NCBI RefSeq assembly: GCF_947623445.1
Contig: NC_135240.1
Coordinates: forward strand, 26,102,001 to 26,166,000
DNA: 64,000 nt
Origin: Clavelina lepadiformis
Lineage: Eukaryota; Chordata; Ascidiacea; Aplousobranchia; Clavelinidae
Reading direction: 5' to 3'
Shown: positions 22,940 through 54,145 of the stretch, piece by piece
How the letters are laid out: the number at the start of each line of letters is the position of its first letter
How positions within the stretch are numbered: position 1 is the first letter of the stretch
Notes under the pieces: model-generated
Told to the model about the DNA's origin: nothing
Seen by the model: the letters and a program-made list of their open reading frames with translations, nothing else
Database searches by the model: none
Translations under genes and position numbers: made by a program

Positions 22940-23066
22940 TTCCTCCCCCGCTACGGAAGGAAAACATTTGACAATTAAAATGGTGATGGTGAACACACTG
23001 ATGATTAAAATGGTGAACACACTGATGATAACAATGGTGAGCATGCACAAACAACAAACTGAATAT

Positions 23067-23677: not shown

Positions 23678-23680
23678 AAA

Positions 23681-24323
23681 TGCAAGGTTTATGCAGCTGC
23701 AGAGTTTATCGGTCTTAACTTATGTTATTTTGACTTAATTTACCTGCTGAATTAATTGTCTGACTCTATTGTTGCGTGCGGTTAGAATTCTCTAACCTCT
23801 TGTCAGCCGAAAGTTTTTATATTATAACAGATACAGTTTACCAGAAAAGGTTTTTATTGTAGGTGCTGTACACTTTCTCAATATTACGCATAACCAAAAA
23901 CATAGTAATACCACTGCTAATAAGATGTCTATTGAATTGCAATCACCATGACTAACGTAGTACTTTCGTACAACTCTCTGTATCTCTCCCTTTGGCGATT
24001 TCTCGCGTAGAAGTTCGAGCTTATAAAACGTGGAGCGATGTGAGGGGAAATATTCGACAAAAAAAGCACGAACATTTCAAAACGTGTGAACGAGAAAAAC
24101 AATGCGTTGGCAATGGAGGTTACATTCAGTTAAAACTGGCGCGTTTTGAAACGACCTGATAACGTTACTAAAAGGAGTTTTCACACGAAGTTATTCAGAG
24201 TAAGTTTTCAAATATCCAACGATAATTGCAGTGTTATCAAAAAACAAAACTCCAATCAATAACTGGAAAAATCTTTTCCAAGAATGATGTAATGGTATTA
24301 AAAATGCCACCCAGGCCGCTACA
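23681..24323 (-). repeat. Right (5') LTR of the retroelement
   Basis: This 643-base direct repeat is the upstream LTR in element sense. It matches the left LTR closely over its whole length, apart from an additional segment of about 68 bases after its first 70 bases. Confidence 0.85.
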
Positions 24324-30300: not shown

Positions 30301-30759
30301 TTGAAACTTGTCTGTCCGTAGCTTAAATTATGATTAATTAGCAACTTAGATAATTAAATTAGACTTCTTGAGTTGATTGTCAGTAAACCAGTTTGCTTGG
30401 TCAAGCAATTAGTGAGATTGTTTCTCTTTTCGTTGCTAATTCTGAAGCTCTGTAGAATAGAATGTTAAGTGGCACTCCACGTAATTCTTGCCGTACCAAA
30501 TCCTAGATTTTGGTACGAAACTTTCGTGTGATTTCTATGTATTGTAGCAAGCGTTGATCAATATAATTCATAATGATTTCAAAAACACGAAAAACAAGTT
30601 TTTATGCAAAAATTGTCAATTATTTTTCGTTGCTTTATGTGCAAGAACTTTCTTTTTTCTCTAAACACTAATCTAAGGCGATCTTAGTCAACAATCGCTT
30701 TTTTCGCTTCTCGTTCTCTCGTTTTTATCTCTTCTCATCAAGATCGTGTCTTCACCAGG
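24324..30759. other. Long intergenic region between the LTR element and INF2-a
   Basis: This 6.4 kb stretch is the longest gene-free part of the window. No domain, splice-linked exon series or RNA gene could be recognised. One minus-strand frame (about 28790-29000) has an acceptor-like CTTCAG just before an ATG and about 70 codons, but there is no family match. The right end should contain the INF2-a promoter and 5' leader. A pyrimidine-rich tract occurs at about 30690-30745. Confidence 0.5.
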
Positions 30760-33700
30760 ATGTTGAAGAAAAGATGGAGCAAGGTGGCGATGGTAGCGAA
30801 GAAGAAGGAGAAGGACGAGATGGAGGAGACGCTCTCAAACCTGGAAAACGCGGAACCGGAACTCTGTATCAAGCTCCTCCACTTCCCGTCCGTGCAAAAC
30901 TTCTCTGGGTTGAAGAAGAAGATTGAGAGCTGTAGCGAGGAGTGGATGCTGGTAAGAGATGATGAGGAAGTTGTTTTCTTAAAGAAGGTGTTGTGGGTGT
31001 TATGTTGCTAGGTGCTAGGGTGCTAGGTGTTAGTGACTTTGGAAGAAAGAAAACACCGCGTTTCAGCTGTAATTTGTCAGATTAATATAATAATTCAACT
31101 CATGTAAGTTTACATTCGTATCGCATAGCAAGAACGCCTTAGCGTCAACTGCTGTCTTCAGATTCGACTTAAGCCATGCGCGTCATCTGTGTTTTCACTT
31201 ACATGTCATATAATGTGTTTTCGTTTCAATTGACGCGCAAAGAACATTGCACGACAATAATTTACATACAAGTGCATCCTTAACAGGGCTTTTTAGAGCA
31301 AGACGGCCTCGCCATTTTGCTCACGACCCTGGAGAGGCTTTCTGATTCTTCGAGGTCGTCGAAGGCGGCCATTATTACGTCAATGGAGATGATACATTGT
31401 GTTGGGTGAGTTGAATGCTGTCAGCGTACATCGAGTTTCAAAATTGCAAAAATACTGAAAAATACCGTAGACGCGGAATATTAGAGTCCGACATGTTTTA
31501 TTTTACTGTAAATAAAAGCGTGAAGGTGGATTGTATGATTACATTTTGACACGTGTACATTAAAAAAAAACGCTTTTTGTATAAAACTAACCACAAGCAA
31601 TGCCTCGGTTCACAACGTGGCGTATCCTCTTAATACGTCACCGCAAGCTAAACCTGCCGTATAAAGCTGATAATGGTTTCAAGCCGTTGAGTCAAAATAA
31701 GCGCCTTGGTTTGAGGCATTTTTCTGGTGGTCGTCGTACGGTACAAGCATTCGCGCATCTAGAGATTGTGATTGTTCTTGTTTACTTGTACGTCTTTTAT
31801 CAGACAACCGCAGCAGCGTTGAGAATTGTCGTTTGAGACACAGGTACTTATGTGCTCAAATCATATTTGCATTTTATTTCAGCTGCGTCAAAGCCGTCAT
31901 GAACTCACGTACCGGGCTGGATTACGTCATCTCACGTGACGAATACACTCGGATGTTGTCAACAAGTGAGTTGTCAAAATTATTTTTTGTATTTGTCTTT
32001 GAAGAAAATTGAAGAAATTTGATTGCAAGCGATTAATATATATGAGTCCCTTTGCCATGGAAAGTGTCTCAGTGGTATTTGAACCATCTTTATTGGTGTT
32101 TCAATATTACACGAATGTTTGCAACGATTGCAGCCTCCCAAATAAATCTTAAATTTTATCAAGTACGTTCCACCGCTTCTTCAGTTTTTCTTTTTATTAA
32201 CATTTGTCATTACAGCGCTTGGCAGCAGTAACGTGATGGTGAAGAAACAAGTCTTCGAGCTATTGGCAGCAATGTCCATCTACACTCTGGATGGGAAAGC
32301 AAGAGCGATTGATGCCATGGAGCATTATAAGGTTCAATATGAGAGAATAATATTAATTCGTGACGTAACGACGGGCATTGTTAAAACGTCTTTGTTGACA
32401 GTTGTTTAATTAGATTCGTGCAAACAGTGACATTCCTTGATGAAATTTTGTCAATAATCCAACAAATCAAACATGGTATAAGTATTTGTAAATGTTAATT
32501 CGATCCATGTGTGTAGTTAATTTGGATTTGCCCCTTTCTGAATTAGCCTATGTTTTGTTCTTATTCACCATGAATATTCCTTCAACCTACATCAACTTCC
32601 AGTTATACCTTCACACTACAAACAACTTAAGTTAAATCCTGTAATGGTGAGATCAATCATAATCAGATATTAGTTTCCACTATCCCGGAAGATCAAGTTA
32701 AAATATACTTGAGGAAAATTACACAGTGAAGCGTTTGATAACTGACCATGATGAGTAACGCAAACAAATGTTTTCATGCTGTACCGAGGTTACCGGAATT
32801 CATTGTTTTCATTTTTGCAGCAAGCGAAGTCACAACGGTACCGTTTCAGTGTTGTGGTTAATGAGCTCCGTGCGGCGGAAAATATTCCGTATCAAACCGC
32901 AATCCTCTCGTTTATAAACGCCGCAATCCTCTCCGTTGATTCGATTCACGAACGGATTCAATTAAGAAACGAATTTATCGGTAATATTATTGTATCGATG
33001 AGTGGGTTAATAGATTGTGGATAATGTTAATATGTTCGAAAGGTGTTCTGTATTACATTGCAATTGAAAAAATGATAAGTTTTGTTGCCTGCGTTTCATT
33101 TTGTTGGTTCCAATTGTTTTAGGAATATTTGATGTTATACTTTTTTGATATGTTTACAAAACTAATTATCGTTAAAAGACAATTTATTAAAAGTGTAGCA
33201 ATGTAAATGTGTAATAGAAGATATGTTTCAACATTTCAGGGTTGCAGTTGTTGGATGTGCTTTCTGAGCTTGGGTGAGTTTGCTAATGCGTTGCACGAGC
33301 TCCCACTAGCGAGCGAATTTTATGCTTGTTGATGCCTTAAAGCTTAAACGATTCCGTTGTGTAGTTAAAATCTTACAGCCTTTATGGCTACTTACTGATG
33401 TGTACGATAACTGTTTTATTGCGATGTGGCTGGAACGCCACGTTACTAATTTAGCAAAATTAACGTATGTGTTTTAACGCAGAGCTGTGATTTTCTAACT
33501 TTCATCAAACAGCTATGTTGGTTTTTTAACTCAAATAACTTCTCAAGATTTTGATACTTTTGTAACAGGGTGCGCGTCAATAACGCAGATAATACTGATT
33601 AGTAAGTTGGTAAGACTGTTCTGCTTTTGCCAAACATGCAGCCATTTTTCATGCTTGCAAAAATGACAGTCATCATTGGCTTTGTGTTGATTTTGAGTGT

Positions 33701-36700
33701 ATTGTGATGGGCAGATTTTTGTTGTTAATTCATTGCTGTGGTTGTCAGATTGGTGTATGATTTTTGTTTTTTGAGTGTTTTTTGAACATGAGATGCTGTT
33801 GCTGATTGCTTGCGTTTAACTATTGGGTTGTGATTTTCTATGTTTTTGTGGTCACCACAAAAATATTGTCTGATAACAGCAAATGCTTAACTTTCCTTTT
33901 TAAATTTCAAATGAGCATATTGCTGAAAAAAGCGCCTGAATTCAACCAAAAATATGTTTGACTCTTGTCGGCTTTCACTTTGCAAAATTTTTTTTTACAT
34001 CTATGCATGTTTTGTGTTTGTTGAAAGTGTAAAAGTAGTTACCGGTATATTACAATGTCATCTACAACAGCAATAAAATCTAGCCGCATAGAAGCAGTAT
34101 GGCACCTAGAATAGCGCTGTAGTCGCGCGTGATAGAAGTACATCGGGAAAATATAAAAGCACCATTTCGTCACTAAAATACTTGTCTTTACAGTTCAACC
34201 TGTGACGAAAAAGTTGACTTAGGAAAAGGGTAATTTAGCGTCTTTACTGTAATGACTGCAGCATCTATGCAAACTTTATTGCTTTTAGTCGGCAATCAAC
34301 AGCAGCAGCGTTTTTTGTCCAATTTGCTTTCCTTGTATGTACCTAGAATTGCAATAGTTATCATATTGCTATGTAATTATTGTTATCCGTCATTTGAGGC
34401 TGATTGACGTTGGATTGTAAAATCAAAACAACCTTCTTTTAAGTGTACAAATCTGATGATGAATCAAATGACTTAGTTGTTGCTTGTAATGTTTTCATGG
34501 GGCTAATAGCTGTAAATTTTATTCCTTGATTTCCTCATTCTTCATCCGACTTTACTTTTAAGCTTATTTTAAAGTTGCAATCAAAACTCAAAAATTTTTG
34601 TCTGTATTGTTTTGTTAAGTTTTTGTCAATTTTTGCAAAAATTTTTCTTACCATTATTAACAAAACTCAAATAATATCACTCAACCGTTACAAAATTACA
34701 TACATGACATCTAGAAACGCATATAACGGTATATATATCATTCATTTTCACAACACTCATCTTAAATGTTAGCTGTTAGGCCACTTACAACCAGAACCAA
34801 ACTGGTGGTTACTTTTCATTTCATGGCAGTTCTTCGATTTGTTGCAATTAGCTTTCAACTAAAACTGCGTCATTGTGGCATGCTGGGCTTAATGATTAAA
34901 GTGGCTTTAGTGCATGCGCAGTTGATGTTGTTTGACGTGCTGGAAGAAGATGTTAACGTGACTCTGTAATTCTTTGTAGTCACGTTGAATCCGAGGATCT
35001 CCTCATACAGATCGAAGTTTTTGACGAGAAGAAGCTTGAAGATGAGGAAGAGATTTTACTCTACACCGGAGTCGAAGGAATCAACATCAACGATCACAAG
35101 GATCTTTTCCTTGCCATTTTTAACAAGGTTTTGCATTGTAATTGGTTCCTATGTCCTATATTCTAACACTCGTTTAATAACCTACACTAATCAGATGTTC
35201 AACCGTGATTCTGCAGGTATGCAACAGTCCGCAAGCTAACCACTTCCTTACAATCCTGCAATGTCTGCTGCAATTAAATCCTGAGGATCGAGTTTCGGAT
35301 GTAGCGTGGGAGGTTCTGGACACCTTGGTGCAGCGTGCCGTTGTCATAGAAACAGAAGAGGAAGGGAGAAAGATGTTGAAGGCCAAAGACAATAAAGAAT
35401 CAACGAAACGCAAAACGAAAGACACTTGCGTTCAGACTGAGGATCTAACTTCAGATGCAGAGTCCATCTCTCCTAGAACTGTTCCTTCAATGCCCTCTTC
35501 AGCACCTCCAGTTGGAGGAGCCCCTCCTCCTCCTCCACCACCCCCGCCTCCTCCGCCACCTCCTCCATTTAATGGAATCAATTCTGCTTCAACAGTAGGA
35601 AGTGCACCACCACCACCACCACCACCACCTCCTCCACCGCCTCCTCCTCCTGTGATGGGAGGCGCTCCTCCTCCACCACCACCACCTCCTCCCTTAGGGG
35701 GAATCCCACCGCCACCTCCGCCTCCCCCACTCCTTGGAGGAATCCCACCACCTCCTGGTGCTCCTCCGCCACCACCTGGTGTTCCTCCACCTCCAGGAGG
35801 TCTTGGTGGTGCGCCTAGACTTTTAACGAGGAGATCGGCTTCAGTTCCGAAGCCCACGGCGAAGCTGCGCAAATTTAATTGGCAGAAAATTCCGGCGGGA
35901 ACCTTAACGAAAAGGTCAGTAAGTTCTCATGGGATTCTATTGTCAAGTGTGTAACAGACGTGTATTTATTGTACATTAGACTGGGCGTATACCGTAGCGT
36001 TACCATTCTGGGCTCTATGGTTTGGCAAATAGCTCGCTCTGCATTAATTATTGTAACGATTAAAACATTAATTTAAATTTACAGGAGTAACAGTGTCTGG
36101 GATTCCTTGGAAAACGCGTGTCCTGAAGTTGAACCAGACTATAAAATTATTCAAGAGTTATTTTCGCAAAAAGTAATTGAGAAGAAAGAAAAAGAAAAAA
36201 AGAAAGCTGTTTCAACTGAAGTAAACACAACTTACTACCTTAGGAGTTTGTGGAAATAGGAGCTAGAAGTTTTATACATAGATAAAATTTTTGTATTGGG
36301 CTTGAATTGTGTGGTATATTTTGCATTTTTTCAGGTGACCCTTATCGATTCAAGACGGAGTATGAACATACATATCTTCCTGCGTCAGTTTAAGAAACCC
36401 AATGAAGAAATCATCCAGGCGTTGGAAGCAGGAAACCGCGAAATCCTGAGTAAGTAAAACTTCCTTTGTCAGTATTTCTAAGTGACGTCAATGCATTTGA
36501 ATTACGATGTGATTTGTTGAGATCCTGGAGTGACAATCTGTTGTAAAATATTGACGTTTTTTCTTCTTTCAGCTGAGGAAAAACTAAAGAGTATGCTCAA
36601 GTTTCTCCCAGAGCAATCCGAGATCGAGATGATCCGAAGTTTCCAGGGGGATCCCGCGACTCTCGCCAACGTCGAGAAATACTTCCTCCTTCTTTCCAAT

Positions 36701-39700
36701 CTCTCCCATTTTCAGCTCCGCATCGAAGCAGCGGTTGCACGCGAGTCGTTTGAAGAAGACATGGAAGACATTGCTCCAACGGTGAAGAAAGTAAAGAAAG
36801 CTTGCAGCGGTAGGCAATATCGAACCTCTAAGATAGTAGTCGGGATAGCTCTTATTTCTCTGCATATTCTGAGTTTGACAACCTTCAAATATTTTTATTT
36901 TGTGTTTAGAGATTAGAAATTGCAAGAAACTGGAAGATTTTCTTGTTCTAATCTTAAAGACAGGAAACTACATGAATTTCGGAGCACATTCTGGTGATGC
37001 TCACGCATTTAAGATTACGTCTTTATTAAGGGTAAAACTGCCGGGTTAGACATGTTTTTAGGCCTATAAATGTTTTGAAAATAAAACAATCACTTTAGGC
37101 AGCAGCAAACGTTTAATTTTACTCTGTACTCGCTATACCGCTAATTTACCTAGTGCTTATATTTTTGTTTTGATTGACAATATTTTGCATGTCTATAGTT
37201 AGCTGAAACAAAAGCCAATAAGCCAAGGATGACGCTGTTACATTATGTCGTCATGGAAGCATCAGAAAATCACAAACAACTTCTTGATCTTCCCCAAGAA
37301 ATGGAGACTGTTGTGAAATGCAAGATGGTGTCGGTCGATCAGCTGTATTCGGAAGTCAGTCGTCTTTCAGGCGCTGTAGACAAGCTGCAGAAACAAGTAA
37401 GAGTAGATAATGTTTTGTCAATGTCACTAACCCTTTGTATGCTTACTGATGTTACTTCTGTTACGTAATGGGACATACCACTTTTGGGACGTTTATCTTT
37501 AAAAGTAACCCTTGTTCCGTCTTGTAGGTTGTTTGAACCTTTGGGAGTTTAGACAAAACAGAAAGCATTACTAAAATCCTTTATCAGGTTGGCAAGGCGT
37601 CGTCAGATGTTCAGGAACAATACGCTCCATTCCTTAAAGATGCTGCGAGTCGCGTCGAAGCAGTCAAGGAGGAGCTTGTGGAAGTGGAAGAGCTGAAGAA
37701 AAATCTCGCCAACTATCTGGTGGAGGAAGAAGGGAAGTTTAAATTGGAGGAATGTTTTTCCACCTTCGCCAAGTTCTGCGAACAAGTGAAAACATTTGAA
37801 TAAATTAATCTCCGAATTCTTTTGTTCAAAACAATCTTGATATTTTTTTTTATCTTGTTCCGTTATCCTCAGATTATCGCCGCGATTAAAGACAATAAAG
37901 ACAGAGCGATCCTAGAGGAAAAACAACGCAAAAGAGCGGCAATGGAGGCCGAGAGGAAAAAGCAGGCTGCTGCCGGAGGAGGAACGGGAAAGAAAAAATT
38001 CATACCTCCACCTCAAGGAGTGAGTAATTGAATCCTCCAGCCATTGAATCTTCCATTCTTGCTCTGATTACTAATATGTGTACAGTATGTTTATGTTGAT
38101 GTAATGGCTTTGTGTCCAAGATGCGATGCTTACGTAGGTTTCAATTGAAAATAACCCCAAATAAATACAGGAATGCATCATCGACAACCTGCTCAGTGAC
38201 ATCAAGAAAGGATTCAAGTTGCGGCGGACGAGCGTTCCCAGTTCGCACCCCAGAACCCTATCCAAGTCGGGCAGTGTGAAACGAGCAAAACCGTAAGCGA
38301 GTATCCCTATCATCCTTGTTATTTTTCTAAACTCACAACGATCTTTTGGCGATCCTGTTTGTCGTGGAGCTGCTGTTCGTGAAGTTGTACATGTTACGCT
38401 CTGCTCTTGTTATCGATGTACAGTATGTGTGGAAACATTAATTAAGCCTGCCATTGACAAGGCAGTAGGTATATGATTAATTATTTTTCTGATGCCAGTG
38501 GAAGCGGCAACGTCACTTGTTTTTGGTTTGTTAGGAAATCCCAGGAGGTTGTTGACGGCGGTGCAGATGATAAAAAGGCAGTGCTTGATGAAATAACAGA
38601 ATCTAAAGATGAGGAAAAAGCAGCAAAAAATGATGATGCCGCAAACGCTGACTCCGACAGTAAATCATCCCAACTTGCTGTAGGAAGTTCTACGAGTCAG
38701 GAAGAGAATTCTGCAGAAGTTACTTCAAACAGCCAAAAAGAAGACACTACACTATCAGTTTGTAACGGAGTGGTCGAAGAACACAATAAGTCAGACGAAT
38801 TAGAAATAAATGAGCAGCATAACAACAATGCATCTGACAATGCGTCTGAGTTTGTAGAAAACGACAACTCAAAAAATGTACTAGGCAATGTAGAAATAGC
38901 GAAGGAAGTTAATCTTGTGCAAGATGATAAAGATGATGCACTGGTGAACTGTCACGTAGAAGACTCCACGCATCTGACAGAAGTCACTTTAACTGAACCT
39001 ACCAAAGATGTTGTAGTTGCAAAAGATGATCCAAAGGAAGAAGAGCCGCCGACGGTAGACTCCACGGAAGATCCACTGAAGGAAGATCAGAGCAAAGGTG
39101 AGGAAGATGTGACAAACGAAGGTCAGGTTGAAGAAAGTGATTTTACTTCTGATCATCTTTCTGCTCTTGATGACTCCTCTGTTGATAACCCGCCCACAGC
39201 TCCTCTTCCCAATAATAAAGGAGCGGATTCTTCCAAACCAGATGAAAGTGAAGAAAAACGTGACTCTGTCAGAGATGGTAAAACTCTTTCACCTAAAAAT
39301 GTGGAAGTGGAGTTAGAAAAAGGCTCTGATCACGACGCTGGGGTAGATGTTGCTCCTGAATTGCCAGATCTCGCAACGATCCAGGAAGTTGACAATGAAG
39401 AGGATGCAGAGAAGAAATCAGACCAACCAAGAAGTACACCTGCCAGTCCCGTCTTGGAAAAGATCATGAACGTTTTTAAAGGAACTTCCCAGTCGTACAA
39501 TTTGAAGAACGGAAAGGCTTCTTCAAGTGTGGATGCTCCCATTTCTTCCGAGCAGATGAACGGACACGCCTCTGAAACTGACGAGGTTTTCGAAACAAAA
39601 GACAATCAAGAACTTAAGGAAACTGGTAAGTGAGAGCATGTGACTGTGCCTAAAGTTTCTTGATTCCAGTTTCGCGTGTCGTGCTATACTTTTTGTTTGA

Positions 39701-42700
39701 AGTTTCTTCTCAGATTTTCTAAGACTTGTAGAATTCGGAAACGTTTTGCTATTTGTAGATTTAGACACAGATAACAAAGTCTTACGAATGTTTTGTGTGC
39801 TTAGTGTGTTACATTCTAAGCATACGTGTGTAGTAATTGTGCTAAACAATGGAAAAATCTCCTTTTTAACATACGAAAGATCCCCACAAGTATGAAAGAT
39901 GATTCCTCAACGTATTAACTTTGCTTGGAATACTAACTTCAGTGTTTAGCTCTTGTTCTTCAGATTTAACTGTCCTAAGCTTGAATTATTCATCCGACTG
40001 TAGCTCTGACGATGAATTTGAAGATGCCCTTGAATATATTTAACGTTGAGTGTGTGTGTTCCGGGAGTTAGTTTTGTATAGTGAATGGAAATAACCTCGT
40101 AGAATTGAGCACGTCATAGTCGCAATGTTTCTGAATGTCAATCACGGAACTAACCTTTTCTCACGCTTGAAGTTTCTCCACTTTTAAATCTTTGGTTCAC
40201 TTTCCCTGGCTTTGATGTTTGAAGTGGTTTGGTTTTTTTTTGGTCGAAGCTCATTTACACCATTTTTTGTTGCTCTGATGTGCAGTGTTTTGTTTAACGG
40301 TCGACACCTGCTGTGAATGTTTCCACAAACGCTCAGAATGTACTCAAACCAGATTGTCCACTACATGAAATTATTTATTGGTACTGTTTTGTGTGATAAA
40401 TCCTGGTTAAACTGTTTGTCTAATCCACATTTTCCTTAAGCTGACAGCAAAACTGAGTCCCATCCGGAACAGGATGATTCAGAGTCCGAGGGGTCACCAG
40501 CTGAAGTGTTAACTAGTTTACGAAAACGAAAAAGAAAACCTTCCCTGTGCTCCATGCAGTAATAGTCTTCAACCACGGTTCGAATCGTAATCAAATCTCA
40601 TTGCTTGTCCATTATCGATGACGATAATGCCCTCTACCCTAAGCATGGCCGTTAACACCTATTATGGTGTCTGAGTAGTGAATTACACGTACACGCGCTT
40701 TTTGGTTTTGCATGTTTATATGAATCCATTACTTATACCGGTCATTGTTATGCAAGTTTTTTGGTTACCTTTGTCTGATTGTGGCGGCGCCACAGACAAT
40801 GCATGACTTCACTGTAAGGAACGTCAATGATAACCTTGACATCTGTTATGGAAACTTAACCCCATAGATATCTTTGATATATAAGATATCTATGGCTTAA
40901 CCCCACTTGTCCGACGTTGGCCTGTCTTTACCACTTTCTCACCTGATCACACAAAACGCGGATGACCTTTTGTAAGATAATTTACACATCAAATCGATAA
41001 AAAATGAAGTTTTTTCCGCAGAAACCTGGACAAAGCTGAAGAAGTTCTTTCGAGTTTTCTAACTCCGATAGTATGAAAAGAGTTATTTTTAAGGTTTGCA
41101 AAAGAGTGTTATCCCACGCAATGTTTGTAATTTTTTCTTTCATCACCTTTTTGTTTCTTTTCAAATAAAACTTTTCTCCATCTGTATGGTCTTTTTGTAG
41201 TAAATTACTATTGCTGTATTTGAGTAGATTTTTTTTACTCTCTGCAATTTTTTTTCTGTACTCTACCTTAACTTTTCTTATGCTGTCCCCGCAATCGTTT
41301 TAAATGAATGGATTGCCCCATTCCGCAATTGCGGAGAAATTCTCTTTGCCAAATTTTGCAGCAAAATTATAAAAGTATCGCCATGTTAAATATCAAAAAT
41401 TCAGAGAAGACATGATAATTCCAGGATAAATCAATTCAAATCTTGTTAAAATCAAATTTCGACGAAAATTACTTAAACTTCATCGATTAATTACTATGAT
41501 TTATCAATGATTGCTTAGCTGTTATGTAACCGTGTCGAACGGTAGTTCAACGTCTAGTTCGAGAACATTGATCTCCATAGTTGCATGGTAATATCATCTT
41601 GTTATGGATACCATTTGCTCACTTTAGCCAAATAGCTCTGTAGGCCTGTCGGCTAGTTATTCATTTTTCAACGCTTAAAGCTTTGTTCCGTAGCAACCGC
41701 TTACTCACTGCATTACTTATATGCTCACTAAACCAGCTTGTTTTTGTCGTTGCCAATGCTAGTTATTAATGTTAGATTAGCTATGCATGTCAAGCCAATG
41801 AGTAATATAAGAAATATGTTTGTTATGTGTCACTTTCATTTTGGTTTCGTAAAAAATATGATATTTAAAATTTATTTGATATTTTTAGAAAGTATAAGCA
41901 CAAAGTTGATTAAATGAGTACGTTTTGAGCTAACTTCGGTTTTGTGATTTGTAGTGAAAACGAATGACCTCATAACACCAGAAGGAAGTCAGACTGGTGG
42001 CAATTTCACCAACGATGCAAAAGACACATCACAAAAGACCAAGAAAAACGCCCAACGCACAAAAAAATCCCAGAAACCGAGTGCATCAGGAAATAAGAGT
42101 GCTTCTATTTCTAAAAGAACGCCACCCGACGTAGTCATGACAATCCCAAGACAACGAACAAAACCATTGGTTAAACATCAGCTTCCGACCAAAGTGAAAC
42201 CGATCTCTGAAAAGAAATCAAACCCAGCACTGTCCCGTCCTTCGTTCACGAAGCCTGCAGCTGCAACTACTAAGAAAACTTCAAGACTCACTAACGCCGA
42301 TTCTAGCTTTTCTACCAAACAGAAAAACTCGAACCGTCCTCCCACTTCGGATATCGGGAAAACTTCTTCGACCGGCCGATCATACGCCGTCAAAAAGCGG
42401 CAGAAACTCGGCGAGGTTTCGAGCAAACCTTTCAGTGACTTGAATAAATCCAACTCAACAGGAAGAGTGAAGCCAATCAAAGAACCTCTACTTGATTCGA
42501 CAAAAGGGTCCAAATACCAACGCAATATCGACGACTCCACAGAGACACCTAACAGCAATCGAAAATCCTTGCGCAAGTCACTGTCGTCGGTAGTGAGAAG
42601 CAAAAGCGGAACTAAGAAACCCGCTTCGGGAGGCGCTGGTGTAGCTAAAGCTAGCGGTACAAGTTCTTATAAAAATTGTGTTAAAGAAGAGACTTCTCTC

Positions 42701-42760
42701 GCTCCTAAGAGCAAAAGTTCACGGTCGAGCTCTTTTAGAAAACTTTTTAATAGGAACTGA
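30760..42760 (+). CDS. INF2: Inverted formin INF2, copy a (with alternative tails)
   Basis: Seventeen common exons join in phase: 30760-30951, 31287-31405, 31883-31965, 32216-32331, 32821-32980, 33240-33273, 34980-35127, 35217-35914, 36085-36220, 36335-36449, 36573-36809, 36910-37031, 37199-37396, 37588-37785, 37873-38019, 38171-38292, 38535-39625. One of three last exons follows, giving about 1331, 1345 or 1573 residues. Domains are an N-terminal armadillo-type DID ([44 protein letters not shown]), polyproline FH1 (about 385-485), FH2 (about 500-900, [16 protein letters not shown]), WH2/DAD ([19 protein letters not shown], from about 902), and a 364-residue acidic Ser/Glu/Asp exon. INF2 nucleates and severs actin and in vertebrates acts at the ER and mitochondrial fission sites. 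The order and motifs match vertebrate INF2 closely. Intron 6 is 1.7 kb. A tandem paralogue lies downstream. Confidence 0.95.
35485..35810 (+). other. FH1 polyproline coding tract of INF2-a
   Basis: Runs of CCT/CCA/CCG codons, mostly in blocks of 6 to 14 prolines separated by Gly-rich linkers (VGGA, MGGA, LGGIP), form the profilin-binding FH1 region. The antisense strand shows a long glycine-rich open frame as a by-product. Tracts of this kind are prone to length variation and assembly error. Confidence 0.9.
39964..40043 (+). CDS. INF2: INF2-a alternative last exon 1: short acidic tail
   Basis: After acceptor TTCTTCAG, the phase-1 donor of exon 17 joins to give [19 protein letters not shown], then EDALEYI and a stop: 26 codons, mostly Ser, Asp and Glu, with no lipid-modification motif. 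No AATAAA was seen before the next exon, so a transcript that uses it may run on to the downstream poly(A) site. Confidence 0.7.
40441..40562 (+). CDS. INF2: INF2-a alternative last exon 2: CAAX tail
   Basis: Acceptor CCTTAAG lies in the same phase as the other two terminal exons. The 40-residue tail is acidic, then strongly basic, and ends [12 protein letters not shown] followed by a stop. The last four residues CSMQ form a CAAX box (a final Q favours farnesylation), preceded by a polybasic patch. Vertebrate INF2-CAAX ends in a comparable C-V-I-Q box and is anchored to the ER. A canonical AATAAA lies downstream at 41164-41169. Confidence 0.88.
40854..40904. repeat. Perfect 13-bp hairpin with flanking direct repeats
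   Basis: The arms CCATAGATATCTT (40862-40874) and its complement (40883-40895) are separated by 8 bases. CTTAACCCC occurs on both sides of the hairpin. It falls in the predicted 3' untranslated region of the CAAX transcript. It may be an RNA structure or a tiny foldback insertion. Confidence 0.6.
41164..41169 (+). promoter_or_regulatory. Poly(A) signal of the INF2-a CAAX transcript
   Basis: This canonical AATAAA lies about 600 bases after the CAAX stop codon, before the third terminal exon. It is consistent with separate 3' end formation for the CAAX form. Confidence 0.6.
41955..42760 (+). CDS. INF2: INF2-a alternative last exon 3: long basic Ser/Lys-rich tail
   Basis: Acceptor GATTTGTAG joins in phase 1 to an open frame of 268 codons starting [12 protein letters not shown]. 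The tail is rich in Lys, Ser, Arg, Thr and Pro, has no recognisable domain, and ends in [11 protein letters not shown] and a stop. It looks disordered and strongly basic, unlike the acidic exon 17. Microtubule or membrane binding is only a guess. A possible ATTAAA poly(A) signal is at 43410-43415. It could also be a separate gene, but the shared splice phase and lack of a good start favour an INF2 isoform. Confidence 0.65.
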
Positions 42761-43820
42761 TGTCACCGGGAATCACCTAATTTGATACCAGGAAGTAGTT
42801 CTTAATAATATGAGTAGGTCGGGCAATTGGCTCGGTGTTTACCCGGCCAATTTTATTAAGTTGTATGCATGAAGCGAGGTCGTGTCGTTTAGCGAGTGGG
42901 ATTGTTTTTATTGTTGTTGCTGCTGCAAATCGAAAATGCAGTGCGGCTTGGTTCAAATCATATTTTTTTTAACTTTTCAATAGACGTGCTTTAAATTTTG
43001 CATCGACTAAAATGTAATCTTAGTGTCACGTTCCTTTTTCTGTTTGTGCGCGTTTATTTCTTCCCTCGTTTGCTGTGTGCTTTTAAAGTTCCAAGGTTTT
43101 CATCCTTTTACCTGTGCTTTTGTGTTTAAGCTCACCTGATATAAATTAATTGAAATACAAAATGCGATCATTTGCAGCAACAGTAGCAGGACTTTTGACT
43201 CTCACACGTTTTGCAAAGGAAGCGAAATCTAAATGGAATTTTACCTCTGAACAACGCTGACAGTTACCATTCATATCCTATATATATAATTTCAAAATAT
43301 GTTCATTTAATTTCAATAGACGGGAAGTTTGAACGAAGCAATGGATAGCTTTGTTCCTCTCGTGTATGTGTTTCAAAGTTAACGGTTAAGAGCGCCCAAT
43401 ACAATTATGATTAAAGCAAGTTATGCAGCTAAAGCTGAAATATGTCTTTAATATAAGCTTATGTTCTTTTTACACCCAATATCATCACAAACCATTGTAA
43501 AGATAGCGATGTTTAAACTTGTGAATGTTACTATTATTTCTTTCTGAGTACACCCCAGATCGTATCAACATGAACCCGTACGACTTGTAATGGTTTACTC
43601 CCCTCTTCTCTTGAACGTTTATGTCCAAACTGTAGTTTTATCAGAATTCCCCCTTTTCGACGTTGTTCAGGGAAATCACAGTTGCAAAAGTTTAAGATGC
43701 ATAAAATACACATGCATGGCACCAACCACGACATCACCTGTGAGGGAAATAACTCTGCAATATGACGCAGTTTTTGATGTTCCATGTGAAGTTACATTAC
43801 TTTTGCGCAATGCTGTAGAA
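42761..43820. other. Spacer after INF2-a
   Basis: This is probably the 3' untranslated region of the long-tail INF2-a form, then intergenic DNA up to a hAT transposon. No coding exon or RNA gene is supported. Confidence 0.5.
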
Positions 43821-43874
43821 CAGGGGTTCTTAAACTTTTTGGCACACGCCCCCCTTAACGGTACCTAAAAATTT

Positions 43875-44069
43875 CGCGCCCCCCCTCATTGCAAAATAAA
43901 AAAGCATTAAACAAAAAAGCAATTTATTTTCAATTAACTTTAACTGATGTGAAGGATGTAGTTGTTTTTTGGAAACCAAACGTTTAATTCGAGGCTTTGT
44001 AGAAGATAATGCCCATCTTAGGTCGGCTTCACAGTCAAGTTTGTTCCTAGGTTTTGTCTTTATATTCAT
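43875..44069 (-). pseudogene. C-terminal fragment of a hAT transposase
   Basis: The frame reads KPRNKLDCEADLRWALSSTK, then PRIKRLVSKKQLHPSHQ. It matches the last residues of ZBED5/Charlie-type transposases (LD-EADLR-ALS--KPRI--L---KQ--PSH). It overlaps the BED frame at the junction in a different frame (+1), so the two pieces no longer make one protein. Confidence 0.8.
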
Positions 44070-44223
44070 GAAGATGACGCTGCAAACGACTTGGTCTCAA
44101 AACGTCGTTGCTTAGCTTTTCTAAGCACATCACGCATTGTGGTACGACTTTTCCGTTCACTGTGGTATCTATAAAGCCATACTTCAGATAATTTTGGTCA
44201 TACTTTCTCTTTTTTCCACTCAT
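44047..44223 (-). pseudogene. N-terminal BED zinc-finger fragment of a hAT transposase
   Basis: There are 58 codons from ATG: MSGKKRKYDQNYLKYGF, then a PQCVMCLEKLSND block and RPSRLQRHLHEY. This is the pattern of the BED finger at the start of ZBED5-type hAT transposases (C-x2-C, later H-x-H). The frame ends at a TAG just past the finger, at the deletion junction. Confidence 0.8.
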
Positions 44224-44909
44224 TTTGTGTCAATACAATTAGTTTAATTACTAAAATACCTGGTTATTAAATCAATACTAAAATTAAATTTTACTTCATT
44301 TTACGGTTTTAATATTGGCTGACGTTGGTTTTACCCTATTTAAACCGGGTGCGCGACATTACTATTTTTATTATGTGTGGCCGACACTGCACACAAATTT
44401 TCAATCGTTAATGACTCGAAAATTATACGTCGTAAACTGATCGGATATTTACAGGTTAGTAGCAAAAACATCTGGCTTTCTGTATACATCATAATTGTAA
44501 AACTAAAGAAAATGCATTTAGTGTAAATTAAGTATTTCTACAAGTGATACATTTGTAAAAGTTTTTCTTGTTACGCCGCCCCCCCCCCGTTGTGAGAAAA
44601 AACAGGTCACTGCAAAAAGAGAACACAAGAGAACAGTTAGTCGAGCTAGGAGTGCATGAATGAGTAAACGAAAACAATACGCTTCAATGCGGAGAAACAC
44701 CAAATATTATGACGTAACAATTGACGTATTTCAGAATCCAAATTTCAAAAATACAATTGCCATGGTGACACACTTTAAAATTTTAGTAAAAATGAACCTA
44801 TAGTGAAAGTCAAGAAAGCATGTTTAGACATAGCTCATATAATAGACAGTTTGTCATCTCTCGCGCCCCCCTTACGAATGTTACACGCCCCCCAGTTTAA
44901 GAACCACTG

Positions 44910-46463
44910 CTGTAGAAGCTAATAAAGGAAACAATTTGGGAAGAGATTGAATTCACAACAATCCGTGCGACGACATACGTTTGAGGAAACGAGAAACTTT
45001 CACGCTCAAAACAGTTTAAATTCCCCTTCTGGTATCAAGCGCTTGGGACAGTTTCGATCATAAGATTTTTGACTAAGGTCGAGACTTCACTTGATAACAG
45101 GGAATATGTGAAAGTAGAACTACGCTGCAAGATTCTTGTTGCGCATTTTTAAAATTTCAACTAAGACCTTGTGAGAAAATTTCCATAATAATAACTCGCT
45201 ACTAGCACTTCCTGAAATGCGTTGCTTGTGGTATAAATATTGGTAATAAAGTATTTGTAATGACAAAGCGCAAATTCGTTTCAAAATATGCTGCATTATA
45301 CTTTAAAATCTTTGGAAATGCAGCTGCAGGCCAACTAAGCTGATGTCAAAGTAACTATACAATCGAGAGACCGAAAAATATTCATTACCGCTGAACGACA
45401 ACGTAGGCGCCATTATCTTGGCTATTACAGATCTAACTTTTCTAAACTAAGGCGTTGTTACTTTTGTTTGCTCATACCAGAAGAAAGTATGCCATAAACA
45501 AAAGGAATGCTATTGAACAAAGATCTTGTAGACGACTTAAAGACGAGATAATAGAGATATTTTTCACCGCTTTCTGATGAATTTGTTTTGTCAGCAATAG
45601 GAAAAGCTTACAATGATCCGTTACGTCGCTTTCTAAACTAAAGTTGATCCTGCGTACTCACAAAATAGCCTATTGAAGGTAGCCCTTATTTCCTCTTTAA
45701 AAAGCTTCCTGATATACAACATTATAGCTATTATAAGACGTTAACGACGGTTTTGTAACGCAGTACTGCGTCCGCTACGCTCTAGCAGTGACTATCACAG
45801 AACTGAAAGAATTTGCGACCGGTTCTTTAGTCATGCTTCACTTATTGCGATTCGGCGGCAGTCAATGAATGTTTTGTTTCCGCACAACCTATTCTGGTCC
45901 TGAGGGCAAACGCTGTGCAAACCGAGTTTGTGGTCGTAAATAATTTCTGAATAAGAACAAGTCGGAGTATCGCAGTTTAACTTGAATTTAGGATCAATTT
46001 GAATTTAACGTTTGATATAGGTCAGGTATATGAATCCTTTACCATCTTTGTATAATTTTCCTGGAAAAAATCGCACTTTGTTGCGAACGAAGGCAAGTTT
46101 CTCAGTTGTTAGATTGTCTTAGGGTTTTCCGAGGGTCGTTAGAAATGACAAGATTAGACTAAAGTAAAAGAATCAATTTAAAAATTTTATTCAGGAAACT
46201 TTATCATAGACCGATAAACAAGGAGCAGGTTTTGATAAGATTAACGACGCATAACAATGTCTGACGCAAACTCAGAGCTATGAGTTGGATTACATGATTG
46301 TTTCCTTTTCTACGTAGAATCTTCTTAACCTCTGTCGTTTGCTGTACATTCTATTTCAGTAGCAAAGCCAAAAGAATAGAGTCTTACTACTCTAACTTAG
46401 TACACGGTGAAATACGATACTTTACTATTGTTTGTATAATCGTGACGTCGTTAGTCACTGGCC
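44910..46463. other. Spacer upstream of INF2-b
   Basis: These 1.55 kb lie between the hAT element and the start codon of INF2-b. No coding exon is supported. The INF2-b promoter and leader are expected near the right end. Confidence 0.5.
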
Positions 46464-49400
46464 ATGATGACCAAAGATCGGTGGCGCAGCGCCATCGTGC
46501 GGGTCATCGAAAACCTGCGAGAAGAAAGAAATGGTCACACTGACGCCTGGTCCAATCTCGAAAACGCAGAACCTGAACTCTGCATAAAGCTGCTCTACTT
46601 TCCGAGTGTAAAAAACTTTTCTGGATTGAAAAATAAAATAAAATGTGGTTCCCCAGAATGGATTGAGGTAAAAATCGAAATTTTTTGACTTTAATGAATA
46701 AAAGAAATCTATGATAAGACCTTTTTCTAGCGCAATTTTACAGTACAACAGTTTAAATTTTCCGTTAAGTTTTCGGAGTTGTGCGTTAAAATCATTATAA
46801 AAATTATGTTTAGGAATTTTTGGAAAAAGATGGACTCAGACTTTTGTTTGCATCTCTGGAGAGGTTATCAGAAGAAAAAGAAACAAAAAACGCGCTGGTG
46901 GCTTCTCTCGAATTAATGCACTGCGTTGGGTAACGAGTTATAGGAATTGTATTTGAAACAATAAAATGATTTACTAAAATAGCATTATTTATTATCATTT
47001 TCACGCTAATTTGATTTGAAAAATCATTCGTACAGCTTATCATACAGTAGGCCTGTAAGTACAGGATTGTACGGTTTCGAGGTGGTCAAAGCCAAACTAA
47101 AACAATTTATAGCTTCTAAAATTGAAAAAATATGCCTGGTAAAACCGCCAACAATTTTATTTAATCTTTTGCATAAGCATGCGTGAGCGCCTTGAAAAAT
47201 GAAACAGCTAGAACAGCAAACGTTAAGGTCAATCAATCGGGAACTACGGTATGGTTATTAACGCAGAAAATGCTTTCACTTTGTGCAAAATGAAAGCATT
47301 GGTTGGTTTGTCCGCTGCTTCATATATGTCTAAACGCGTAACTAATGTTGATTGTTGAGGCGACCGTAAAAAGTCAACAATAGTCAACGCCAAATAATTT
47401 GAATTCTATCTTTGGGATTGAATTCAGCTTCGCGTGAAAAGTTGATTTGACGCAACGTCAGCGCTAAGATAGCACCAGGCAAAACGTGGAAAATAATGAA
47501 ATGCGTGTTTCTGTTGATTCAAACCGGTTTATGTACCTATAATGTTAAAATTTAAACCAATGAATTTATGACATTTCAGGTGTATTCGAGCAATTATGAA
47601 TTGCCGTCGTGGTTTGAATTACGTCATATCACAGCAGAACTGCACCAGGATGCTTTCTGCAAGTAAGTATTCACGGTTGTAACTGCTGACATGATCTAAA
47701 TATAGCTTTGTAATTAAACTTTTAACAAATGTACAGAAACGTTATACAATTACAAATTATTCAAAATTAATCAAACGTAAACCACGTCAAAGTTCAAGAC
47801 AACAACTGATACCTAACACCAATATGTTTGCAATTTTCAGTTCTTGTTTTGGACGACGTCAACCTCATCGTCAAAAAAGAGGTTTTCGAGCTACTAGCAG
47901 CAATGAGCATCCACTCAGCAGAAGGCAGAGAAAGAGCGATTGACGCGATGGAATACTACAAGGTTTAAATTCATGATGTTTTGCAAAATCTTGCTCAAAT
48001 TAGTCTTCGGTTTCTGATCATCGTAATTCTTTTATGCAAAGAGCCGCTTTAAGTGTTAATTATTAAATTGTCAGTTTTTATTATACTACAGAGAGAAAAG
48101 TCTCAACGGTACCGATTTAGTGTTGTAATAAGTGAACTTGAAAACTCTGTGAACCTCCCCTACAAAGCAGCTGTGCTGACCTTTATCAACGCACTCGTGC
48201 TAGCCACTGAACCACTGATGGAAAGGATTCGAATAAGAAACGAATTTATAGGTAAAAATCAAAGCTTAACTATAAACTGGTTTAAAATATTTTCAAGTTA
48301 TGGCTTGTTTTTATTTGTTTACAGGGCTTGGTTTATTGGAAGTCCTTGCAAAATTAAGGTTAGTAGGTGTAGTAACTTTCACAAAAATGAATGTATTCTA
48401 AATCTCAAAATAATTTGGAGCAGAAAATGTTTTCATAGACGTGTCAAGTCTAGAGACCTAAAGACGCAAATCGACGTCTTCAAAATGGAGCGGTTGGAAG
48501 ACGAAGAAGAACTTATAAAAGCTTCCGGGATTAACGGAGTGAATCTTAAAGACCACGAGGAGGTTTTCTCGGCTCTTTTCAATAAGGTTGGAATAACTGG
48601 AAAATGTGTAATAAACTCCCCAATTTTGAAGCAGGGCCACAGATTCTCACACGTGATTGCAAAATGCTTTACTTAGTGGTTATTTCCTTGTTATATAGGT
48701 GAGCAATACGCCTCAAGCTAATGAACTTCTCACCATTCTACAATGTCTGCTTCATCTTGATCCCCAAGATCCGGTATCCGACATAGCATGGGAAATGCTT
48801 AACGCCTTCACACAGAACTTGCTCAAACAAATTCAAGAAGATGGCGGAATCAACTTGAAGCATCACACATCGGATGCAAAGTTCTGGTCCAAATTGGATG
48901 ACGTGAAAGATTGTTCCGTGCAGACTGATATTGATGATGATGATGATGATTTTGTCATGCGTGAGGTGGAAAAAGATTCTTCTAAAGCTGTGACTTCATC
49001 TACTGGATTTATAACAACTCCTGTTTCTTCTCTTCCTGTGCGAAAAGAACCTCCTCCTCCACCCCCACCTCCACCTCCACCACCCCCTCCTCCTCCGCCC
49101 CCTCCACCTCCGGTTGGAGGAATCCCACCTCCTCCACCTCCGCCGCCACCAATCGGAGGAGTCCCTCCACCTCCTCCTGTACCAGGAGCACCTCCCCGAG
49201 GTGGCACCAATCCTTCAACAACTGTTCGCAGGCGTTCAGCTGAAGTTCCGAAACCTTCAGCAAAAATGCGTAAATTGAACTGGAAGAAACTGGACAAATC
49301 AAAACTTAAGAAAAGGTAAAGTCCTTGTTAAAGACTCTATTATGAATCATTTATTATAGATGCGAGGAAGGTGATCAACTTCATGCGCAAGATGCTACTG

Positions 49401-51872
49401 TAGCAGGAGCTAAAACAAAAGTAGTCTTGCACAAGTTAAACATTTTACAATCAAATGTTACTAATTAGACCGAATAAGTAAAATCCTATTACGTCTTCTT
49501 GTTTTGACAGGCTCGATGTTTGGGACTCAATAGAGGAAGAACACAGCGACATCAAGCCTGACTACTTGCTCATGCAAGATCTCTTTGCAAAGCAAGAGAA
49601 ACAAAAAAAGAAGAACAAAGAAAAGAAACCAAAACAACCAAAAGAAGTAATCCCGAGTTAAATGAAGAGCTACCAAAATGAAAAGAAAACAAAACAATAA
49701 ACAATGTTGAATTTTTCCCAGATTTCTTTGCTTGACTCCCGCCGAAGCATGAACATCAGCATTTTCCTGCGTCAGCTTAGAAAGCCGAACGAGGAAATTA
49801 TAAACGCTTTGAAAGAAGGAGATCGCATTATGCTGAGTATGATGATAAAATATTGCTGTTTGTCTGTTGTATTATTTAATGACATTAGTTAATTTGATTT
49901 TATATGATGTATCGCTAAAACGTTTTATCGTAGACATGATTTGACAGCTGTTTTTATTGGCTTTTTGTATATCTCATGGGCCTATACCGTAAGCTACGTT
50001 GTATTTCTAGTCATTGTTTAAAACTGACAATAACTATAAATTATGTAACAAAAACAAACAACTTTCAGCGGAGACTAGATTGAGAAACCTGCAAAAATAT
50101 CTTCCTACAAAAAACGAAATTCAGCTCATTCGGGATTTCTCTGGCGATCGCGCTGCTCTCGGAAACGCCGAGCGATTTTTCCTCCTCCTCAGCAACGTAC
50201 AATATTACCAGCTCCGTATTGAGGCAATGCTGTCACGTGAGTCATTTGAAGAAGACATGAGCAGTCTGGTACCGGCAATCTCTTGCATAAAGAAAGCTTG
50301 CAAAGGTGAGCGGGTCAATTTTTATGGAAAACTTGATTTTCTGTTCATTACAATTTCAAATCTTACAGTTTATTGCAGTGCAGTTGCAGTTTTATTGGTA
50401 AAGGTATCTGTCGCTTTAGTTGGGATTTTATTGTTGAACTATAGGAAAATCATCTATGCTTGGTAGATATTTTAATTTTTTCTTTAATGAAGCAAGTTGC
50501 TTGTGTTGATGTATTTTCTACTTTTTCCAGAACTACTTACAAGCACCAAATTACAAGAATTTTTCTCTTTAATGCTAAAGGCAGGAAATTATTTAAATTA
50601 TGGTAGCTATGCAGGAAATGCTTATGGCTTTCGAATTTCTACACTTACGAAGGTACAAAATAAAAATACGTTGCATACATAACTCTTTCGTCTAAACTCT
50701 AAACCTTTCGAATTATGTAATCTATCCATGACTGTGTGATTTGTGAGGGTAATCGCGAAGCAACGTAGGGTATTTTCCACTATAACTTTGATTGATCTTT
50801 GTGTTAAAGCTGGGAGATACTAAAGCAAATAAGCCACGGATGACTCTCATGCATTTCGTTGTGTTGGAAGCAGAGACAAAGTACCCAGCCTTGCTCGGTC
50901 TTTCGAAAGAGTTGGAGTCTGTGGTGAAATGTAAGTCTATTTCGGCACAACAAGTGAAAGAAGACGCAGATCGCGTCACAGACACCATTTCGAAACTAAA
51001 GAAGCAGGTGGGCCGTTGTTTCAAACTTAAGGCACGCTAGGCTAAGTTAGTTTTGCTATTAGGCTAAAGCTAATTTAGTTAGGCCACTTTAGTTATTCAA
51101 GGAAACCGGTAAAACGATTTTTGATTTCCTGAGCAGCATTCTTCATGACAGATCCAAAGTTTTACTACATAAGCTTTTTACTGTGGTGTGAACAAAGCTT
51201 CGTATTATGTGAAAACTGCATCTTAATTGTGATGTGCTTTCTAGGTAAAGAAAGCTTCTGATGACGTTAAAAAACAATTCAAGCCCTTTTTGAAAGACGC
51301 TGAGCTTCGTATCAGTCCCTTTAAGAATGATCTTAAAGAAATAGAGAAACTTCGAGTCAAACTGGCCGAATTTTTGGTCGAGGATGTTAATAAATTTCAA
51401 CTGGACGCCACCTTTTTTCTATTTACAAAATTCATTGAACAGGTGCATTGTTATAAAAAATTTGAACTTTGTAATAACAAACTGTTGGCTGCAGTACTAA
51501 GGACGCTAATATTTATCTCAGTTGGATGAAGCGCGCGAAGAGAACAAGGAAAGAGCGAAACTCGAAGAGAAAAGAAAGAAGAGAGAAATGATGAGAGGGA
51601 TAACAGAAGTTGATGGAATAAGAACAACTCCCGCACAACCAGTTCAGCCTAAAGTAAAGACTCAAACATTTGGATTACTTTAAAATTGGGTTAAAAAATA
51701 AATTAGCTTAGACTTAAAAATTTAGATTAGCTTATAATTTATTATAACTTTGAAAGCATAAAGCTGTAGGCATTTTAATTTGTTGATTTCTTTATAGGAA
51801 AATCTTATTGAAAATCTTTTGGGCGAGATCCGTAGTGGCTTCAGACTTCGAAGATTGAAGAAGCCGAAATGA
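46464..51872 (+). CDS. INF2: Inverted formin INF2, copy b (short, no tail extension)
   Basis: Sixteen exons join in phase to about 893 residues: 46464-46667, 46814-46929, 47580-47662, 47841-47962, 48092-48251, 48325-48358, 48454-48586, 48699-49315, 49511-49646, 49722-49836, 50069-50305, 50531-50652, 50810-51007, 51245-51442, 51522-51653, 51798-51872. The domain order is DID ([31 protein letters not shown]), FH1 with one long proline run and two shorter ones, FH2 (GNYLNYGSYAGNAYGF) and WH2/DAD (ENLIENLLGEIRSGFRLRR). It stops five residues later. It has no acidic exon and no CAAX box. All 15 introns match copy a in position and phase, and ten exons have identical lengths, so this is a tandem duplicate. 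The FH2 core is intact, so actin activity is likely. Membrane anchoring through a lipid tail is not. Confidence 0.95.
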
Positions 51873-53861: not shown

Positions 53862-53886
53862 CCTTTTCTGTTGTGGTGTGGGGCAG
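53862..53886 (+). promoter_or_regulatory. RPL9: RPL9 5' TOP tract and non-coding first exon
   Basis: The run TCCTTTTCTG, starting at about C53862, has the form of the 5' terminal oligopyrimidine tract of ribosomal-protein mRNAs. It is followed after about 20 bases by a GTATGT donor at 53887. Splicing to the acceptor at 54144 would leave one base before the start codon. TOP tracts couple translation to growth signals. The exact start is inferred. Confidence 0.6.
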
Positions 53887-54145
53887 GTATGTGAATGGAT
53901 AATTATCTGATTAAATCCTACTTTGAGAGTTGTTTTCGGCCGTTTTTCTTGCATGTTTGGCCTTAGTTTTGTTGAAACTTTACCTACCTGTTTATTAGTA
54001 TATCGATTCATTGGCTATAAAATTGCCTATGATGAAATTGTTGCCTATAAATTACAATAAGGTTGAAGGCCAACCTGGCCAAACTCAAGCTGATTTCTAG
54101 TTTTAAAATCATAGTTACCTTTATGCTTTAAGTTAATGCAACAGC

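Follow-up and report, generated by a model that had tools for sequence, protein, structure and literature searches.

Two complete genes for INF2-type formins, here termed copy a and copy b, were identified head to tail on the + strand of the window (the whole stretch of 64,000 nucleotides of Clavelina lepadiformis DNA that was analysed). The preliminary description had placed them about 4 kb apart, and the spacing from the last stop of copy a (42760) to the ATG of copy b (46464) is 3.7 kb. Copy a spans 30760-42760 when its candidate tails are included; its GT-AG splice model joins 17 shared exons to a last exon for which there are three candidates (t1, t2 and t3), and it gives an open protein. 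All 16 exons of the GT-AG model of copy b are likewise open. The features are as follows:

30760..39625, + strand: copy a, 17 shared coding exons (GT-AG splice models, Pfam, PDB match to INF2), encoding an N-terminal Trp helix, DID/DD, FH1, FH2, WH2/DAD and an acidic exon
38171..38292, + strand: exon 16 of copy a, with the WH2/DAD motif (splice model, alignment)
38535..39625, + strand: acidic exon of copy a, 1091 nt, 364 codons, pI 4.15, 25.5% D/E
39964..40043, + strand: t1, candidate last exon of copy a, 26 amino acids, with the FFAT-like EFEDALE; of the three tails this one is least certain
40441..40562, + strand: t2, candidate last exon of copy a, 40 amino acids, ending in a CaaX box; AATAAA at 41164
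41955..42760, + strand: t3, candidate last exon of copy a, 268 amino acids, 22% K/R, pI 10.8
43816..44914, no strand: inserted element between the copies, with 21-nt terminal inverted repeats (86% complementary)
46464..51872, + strand: copy b, 16 coding exons, 898 amino acids, encoding DID/DD, FH1, FH2 and WH2/DAD, then a stop
51798..51872, + strand: last exon of copy b, with the WH2/DAD motif NLIENLLGEIRSGFRLRR, then LKKPK and a stop

The inserted element is presumably hAT-like. Scanned for Rfam families and for tRNA genes, the window gave no matches to either, and the scan for neighbouring genes took in 20 of 85 ORFs. An exon of ribosomal protein L9, taken as a species marker, has nearly equal top scores across many chains and so does not place the species. 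In-frame stops lie immediately upstream of the copy b ATG and the phase-1 donor at 39625 is mismatched to exon 2 of copy b, which begins in phase 0; a single transcript joining the two copies is thus predicted to be unlikely.

Pfam domains Drf_GBD, Drf_FH3 (E 9e-34 and 1.2e-33 for the two copies) and FH2 (E 2.8e-87 and 8.7e-89) are present in both proteins, the E values being so low that chance is ruled out for both formin calls. The Drf_GBD match starts only at profile position 38 (copy a) and 69 (copy b) of 188, and in a PDB sequence search the match to human INF2 starts at residue 11 in copy a and at residue 29 in copy b. A separate Rho-binding G segment is therefore absent and the N-terminal extension short in both, as is characteristic of the INF2 type. 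Among solved proteins, each copy matches human INF2 best (chain 9azp_G; 688.6 bits for a, 511.9 bits for b), with mDia1 chains reaching at most 187.2 and 195.2 bits, respectively. Identity to human INF2 across the DID is 50.8% for copy a and 44.7% for copy b over 311 ungapped columns, and residues N110, A149, R214, R218 and E220 are identical in all three proteins. At 35 DID positions selected as disease or contact sites, the human residue is kept at 27 in copy a and 28 in copy b. Both copies encode a proline-rich FH1, have Ile and Lys aligned with I643 and K792 of the human FH2, and carry a WH2/DAD motif after the FH2 in the alignment. The calmodulin site of human INF2 has been described as W11, L14 and L18 (PMC11589041); its Trp is kept (W6 in a, W7 in b), with V/A in a and A/V in b at the +3/+7 positions. 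From sequence, both copies look intact.

The gene structures are closely matched between the DID and the WH2/DAD. It had been proposed that all 15 introns agree in position and phase: this holds for phase (15/15; 0,2,1,0,1,2,0,2,0,1,1,0,0,0,0), while the alignment column is identical for 14 of them only, intron 3 being displaced by two columns next to an indel of two codons. A recount of exons of equal length gave the same number as before, ten of sixteen (83, 160, 34, 148, 136, 115, 237, 122, 198 and 198). Common introns are what a tandem duplication leaves whenever the gene already has introns; they show that the duplication came later than the introns and tell nothing further.

Beyond the WH2/DAD the copies part. 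The acidic exon of 364 residues that had been described for copy a was found there, with no Pfam family in it, and it is followed by the three candidate alternative last exons, all in phase. The t2 tail carries a polybasic stretch and the CaaX box CSMQ (human INF2 ends CVIQ), and of the 47 phase-1 candidates that were scored, no other has Cys in the fourth-last position. Its acceptor (AAG) scores 3.78, under all 31 acceptors of the models (lowest 4.02). The interval 39626-46463 contains 362 AGs, of which 12 equal or exceed the acceptor of t1 in score, 28 that of t3 and 47 that of t2, so acceptor strength fails to single the tails out. The PDB match to human INF2 stops at residue 935 of copy a, and for this reason no tail similarity beyond the basic residues and the CaaX box was detected. 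The t3 exon stays open for 268 codons; the longest open run in 300 Markov controls matched to it in composition was 224. A Pfam scan of t3 gave one family at E 0.83, below the cut-off of that family. The C-terminus of human FHDC1 is basic like t3 (pI 11.6, from a provisional sequence), and homology of t3 to this tail was rejected, the best BLAST E of 0.69 against the provisional sequence being not significant. The t1 heptad EFEDALE, a motif chosen after the sequence had been seen, fits five of six FFAT key positions and has an acidic, Ser-rich flank (charge -3). No other of the 85,778 heptads read from the window in six frames matches in this way; when the 26 residues of t1 were shuffled 20,000 times, 160 of the shuffled sequences gave a match too. 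Length does not make t1 distinctive, as 13 of the 47 candidates have at least 26 residues and three others that long have stronger acceptors. Neither AATAAA nor ATTAAA was found between t1 and t2, and a PDB search with t1 returned no matches at E up to 10.

Copy b ends right after its WH2/DAD, as had been stated, with the stop five residues beyond the motif. The GTs within its last exon (51832 and 51835) both lie inside the motif, and an AATAAA stands 3' of the gene at 52228. Downstream, 29 of 239 AGs score at least as high as the t2 acceptor and none gives a CaaX end in phase 0 from exon 15, by which a hidden CaaX end behind copy b was ruled out; one of the 29 leads to the end CERH. From 51640 to 56000 there are nine frames with a C-x-x-X end. 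One of these ends, CTVL (52992), has a CaaX-like form; the open stretch that it closes is 20 residues long and has no basic run, and no scored acceptor reaches this end. A relic of the copy a exon 16 extension after the copy b stop was also ruled out, since scores as high came up in 285 of 2000 shuffles.

An FH2 tree grouping the copies together had been put forward as a check on their relationship. In a tree of seven sequences, with a provisional sequence as the human FHDC1 row, no invertebrate INF sequence included and the PDB relatives Bni1, Cdc12 and Formin 1 omitted, copies a and b are sisters (97/98) inside an INF clade (100/99) instead of falling in different formin families, and both group with INF2 rather than with DIAPH, DAAM or FMNL. 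Omission of the provisional FHDC1 row leaves these values at 97/95 and 99/98. Judged from sequence divergence the duplication is old, because FH2 identity between the copies is only 51.3% and four-fold sites are saturated (64 of 199 alike). Uncollapsed haplotypes can, as is generally known, yield head-to-tail genes of like layout; an assembly artefact of this kind is already refuted here, as half of the FH2 residues and two thirds of the four-fold sites differ. It is also very improbable that the duplication is older than vertebrates, with copy b an FHDC1/INF1 that still has its DID and copy a the INF2. YAGNAxGF is common to copy b and the provisional human FHDC1 sequence, the copy a form is more INF2-like, and copy a outscores copy b against human INF2, but the tree joins the copies to each other, and each is 31.6% identical in FH2 to the FHDC1 row (provisional, and a long branch). 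Membership of FHDC1, which would mean a sister of FHDC1 without a DID, was not found for either copy and was ruled out for copy b by the same tree, again with the provisional row. A pattern search for relatives gave 47 matches in genome contigs and 70 in viral contigs, none confirmed, as expected for an animal gene.

The locus probably goes back to a tandem duplication of an inverted formin of INF2 type, old and specific to one lineage, after which the targeting tails stayed only with copy a, an asymmetric partition. The earlier suggestion of a soluble copy and a membrane-capable copy stands in so far as a CaaX tail is predicted for copy a and none was found for copy b. Since copy a retains the long open t3, and possibly t1, non-CaaX forms of it are predicted and the split is not a clean one. 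This same point tells against a strictly complementary division, in which copy b would serve all soluble functions and copy a the membrane function alone; that division appears unlikely, even with copy b tailless and the sole CaaX exon found belonging to copy a. There is a similarly small chance that copy b has no role of its own and is decaying slowly or only adds dosage. Its tail is absent and its DID has changed faster (40 unique sites against 21 in copy a, p 0.015), which could reflect relaxed constraint, but every one of its 16 exons has an open frame and GT-AG sites although synonymous sites had time to saturate, and key residues of the FH2 and the DID are conserved.

Under the asymmetric partition, both copies would encode autoinhibited actin nucleators and severers that are opened by a Ca2+ or G-actin signal, like human INF2. 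Copy a would join its long acidic linker to one of several alternative last exons, and the farnesylation-type CaaX tail of t2 would be expected to target the protein to the ER, as happens with vertebrate INF2-CAAX. Copy b has neither linker nor tails and is predicted to act only in the cytosol, because its stop falls five residues after the WH2/DAD. Tail-dependent targeting, and the non-CaaX forms too, would thus have remained with copy a, leaving copy b as a minimal, untargeted version. A more elaborate scheme, which we regard as rather doubtful, makes copy a a three-way targeting switch set by its last exon: to the ER through VAP binding by the FFAT-like t1, to the ER through the farnesylated CaaX of t2, and to another structure, possibly microtubules, through the basic t3. 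Copy b would have shed all targeting and be cytosolic, and duplication together with alternative last exons would divide the targeting that vertebrates spread over INF2 and FHDC1.

Kidney and nerve disease have been described as results of INF2 mutations, and the CaaX form on the ER as a driver of actin at ER-mitochondria contacts (PMC11589041, PMC9481738). A tailless INF2 adjoining a tailed one would allow soluble and membrane roles to be removed gene by gene, and the pair would offer a natural test of how duplicates divide jobs otherwise handled by alternative splicing of one gene. If the assignments are true, an INF2 CaaX last exon would exist outside vertebrates and ER targeting might be achieved via two different tails of one gene.

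Human INF2 is a single gene with INF2-CAAX and INF2-nonCAAX isoforms (PMC11589041). In common with it, the copies have a DID without the Rho-binding G segment, FH1, FH2 and WH2/DAD, copy a adding a C-terminal extension with candidate alternative ends, one of them a CaaX box with Q last. Where the human gene has two tails (18 and 9 residues), here there are two tandem genes, copy a having three candidate last exons and copy b lacking any. Human FHDC1/INF1 has an INF-subtype FH2, as do both copies, and a microtubule-binding C-terminus (PMC3480493); it is not among the 11 human formins with DID and DAD in the list given in PMC11589041. Unlike FHDC1, both copies have a DID, and t3 lacks significant similarity to the provisional FHDC1 tail. 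Drosophila Form3 and C. elegans EXC-6 are invertebrate INF-type formins, and the available text of PMC12045603 makes no mention of a tandem INF pair for either. Form3 has DID, FH1 and FH2, with the DAD reported absent (PMC12045603), unlike the two copies described here, which both carry a WH2/DAD motif. The putative motif of the candidate exon t1 resembles FFAT-like VAP-binding motifs such as that of protrudin (EFKDA-E), which binds VAP despite an equally extreme change at position 3 (PMC3261905).

The locus is a real, well-formed and old tandem pair of INF2-type formin genes, one copy of which has a candidate CaaX design like that of human INF2. A translated comparison gave matching stretches that are collinear between the two regions, running from the ATG as far as the WH2/DAD motif (which follows the formin domain, FH2), and gene models were made by choosing GT-AG splice sites around each matching stretch. 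Both models translate without stops:

Splice models of the two INF2 copies
30760-39625, + strand: copy a (upstream gene), common coding part, 17 shared exons
46464-51872, + strand: copy b (downstream gene), 16 exons, 898 residues

The ATG of copy a and the stop of copy b fall exactly on the limits placed by the preliminary description (30760 to 51872). It had held all 15 introns to be alike; this stands for phase (15 of 15) and for alignment column in 14 of 15, but not for the position of intron 3, which is displaced by two columns where there is an indel of two codons. Its count of ten exons identical in length out of sixteen was reproduced, as were the 364-residue acidic exon of copy a (1091 nt, 364 codons, pI 4.15) and the end of copy b, where LKKPK and a stop stand directly behind the WH2/DAD motif. 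A pyrimidine-rich stretch occupies 30720-30762, and an AG lies one nucleotide upstream of the ATG of copy a; this is possibly a 5' untranslated intron or a trans-splice acceptor for this gene.

Pfam domains Drf_GBD, Drf_FH3 and FH2 were matched in both copies alike. Among PDB sequences both copies matched a human INF2 chain best, copy a at 688.6 bits (best mDia1 chain 187.2) and copy b at 511.9 bits (best mDia1 chain 195.2). As the preliminary description had anticipated, the copies paired in a small FH2 tree (support 97/98) within an INF clade (100/99), with DIAPH1, DAAM1 and FMNL3 outside; the FHDC1 row was a provisional sequence, and the tree gave no firm branching order among INF2, FHDC1 and the pair. 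Removal of that row gave 97/95 for the pair and 99/98 for the clade. FH2 identity is 51.3% between the copies, 36.6% between copy a and INF2 and 34.2% between copy b and INF2. On this sampling, the duplication would date to this animal's lineage, once that had separated from the human one. Only 64 of the 199 four-fold sites common to both copies are alike; such saturation of synonymous sites marks the duplication as old. Every species examined by Pruyne 2016 (PMC5047451) was reported to have one or more INF formins.

Residues N110, A149, R214, R218 and E220 of the human INF2 autoinhibition domain (DID) are identical in both copies, while Y153 is His in copy b. By alignment, both carry Ile and Lys at the FH2 positions I643 and K792 (human INF2 numbering), which we take to be catalytic. 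The Trp of the N-terminal helix is kept in both, the calmodulin-contact places reported for human INF2 in part, and the proline-rich FH1 has five tracts of at least five prolines in copy a versus three in copy b. When human INF2 served as the outgroup, relative-rate counts were 21 (copy a) versus 40 (copy b) in the DID (p 0.015) and 41 versus 52 from FH2 to DAD (p 0.25).

Behind the acidic exon of copy a, a donor at 39625 leaves phase 1, and three candidate last exons follow:

Candidate last exons of copy a
39964-40043, + strand: t1, 26 residues (full protein 1331)
40441-40562, + strand: t2, 40 residues (full protein 1345)
41955-42760, + strand: t3, 268 residues (full protein 1573)

At its C-terminus t2 has a CaaX-type end (a membrane-anchoring signal) behind a basic run, compared with CVIQ in human INF2. 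The human CaaX box is described in a review as farnesylated and targeting the ER (PMC11589041). Of the 362 AGs between 39626 and 46463, 47 scored at least as high as the acceptor of t2, and among these phase-1 candidates t2 alone has Cys fourth from the end. The stretch of t3 stays open for longer than every one of 300 composition-matched Markov controls, the longest of which reached 224. Neither length (at least 26 residues in 13 of the 47) nor acceptor sets t1 apart, stronger ones occurring at 39714, 43645 and 43671 among the other candidates of at least 26 residues. Against 31 model sites the acceptors scored 7.25 for t1 (13 lower), 5.34 for t3 (3 lower) and 3.78 for t2 (none lower); the poor acceptor of t2 would fit regulated use, yet the CaaX model is also at its weakest there. 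AATAAA or ATTAAA is absent between t1 and t2; AATAAA lies at 41164, 3' of t2, and several of either form lie 3' of t3 from 43410. Open phase-1 stretches with good acceptors at 39714-39900 and 43645-43870 (+; 60 and 74 residues) are possibly extra last exons, or chance.

The last 20 residues of t1 offer a FFAT-like (VAP-binding, ER-binding) motif, in which five of six positions carry a favoured residue and the flank has a charge of -3. No other heptad of the 85,778 in all six reading frames of the window qualifies, and the same level was reached by 160 of 20,000 shuffled versions of the 26-residue tail. Because the motif was picked after the sequence had been read, and the exon is itself a candidate, the FFAT-like tail counts as a lead. 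An acidic WASP-type end is another possible reading of these residues. Mikitova and Levine (PMC3261905) report that VAP can be bound by motifs having up to two poor elements, and that protrudin EFKDA-E binds although its third residue is extreme. Neither a tandem INF2 pair nor a FFAT-like INF tail appeared in titles or abstract openings among the matches listed, most subscription papers being outside that scope.

For copy b, an AATAAA lies at 52228. No tail relic was detected 3' of its stop, where 285 of 2000 shuffles did equally well, and no in-phase CaaX end was found among the 29 of 239 AGs behind exon 15 that reach the t2 score.

The window also contains:

Other features
17718-19244, - strand: gene for a kinesin motor, three ORFs matching Pfam Kinesin
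22365-22950 and 23681-24334: direct repeats, pieces within these limits 96-98% alike, spacing about 1.3-1.4 kb
23070-23639, - strand: gag-like ORF (by eye) flanked by these repeats, no Pfam match
43816-44914: element between the INF2 copies, 21-nt terminal inverted repeats, presumably hAT-like
57596-57925, + strand: ribosomal protein L9 (uL6) exon, matching many eukaryotic ribosome chains
59305-61313, + strand: long ORFs without Pfam matches, the second with a C-terminal hydrophobic stretch (by eye)
about 62096-64000, + strand: ORFs near the window end with a CUB match (just under the Pfam cut-off) and an LDL-receptor class A domain

The interval 22365-24334 resembles a young LTR retroelement with an internal deletion, and the ORFs at 59305-61313 perhaps form one membrane-anchored protein.

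As a duplication the pair is ordinary, and the interest of the locus lies in its putative tail repertoire. Since human INF2 has a tail, the most parsimonious view gives one to the ancestor of both copies, and copy b would have lost it or been copied without it. Copy b is predicted to be cytosolic in its action, and copy a to work at membranes or other sites according to the tail chosen. The proposed division into a soluble and a membrane-capable gene holds for a tailless copy b and a copy a with a CaaX candidate, but is not clean: the non-CaaX stretches of copy a are still open, so the split would be asymmetric. In vertebrates a single INF2 gene is described as yielding CaaX and non-CaaX ends (PMC11589041). 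Copy a would keep this design and add further candidate tails, and copy b ends straight after the WH2/DAD motif.
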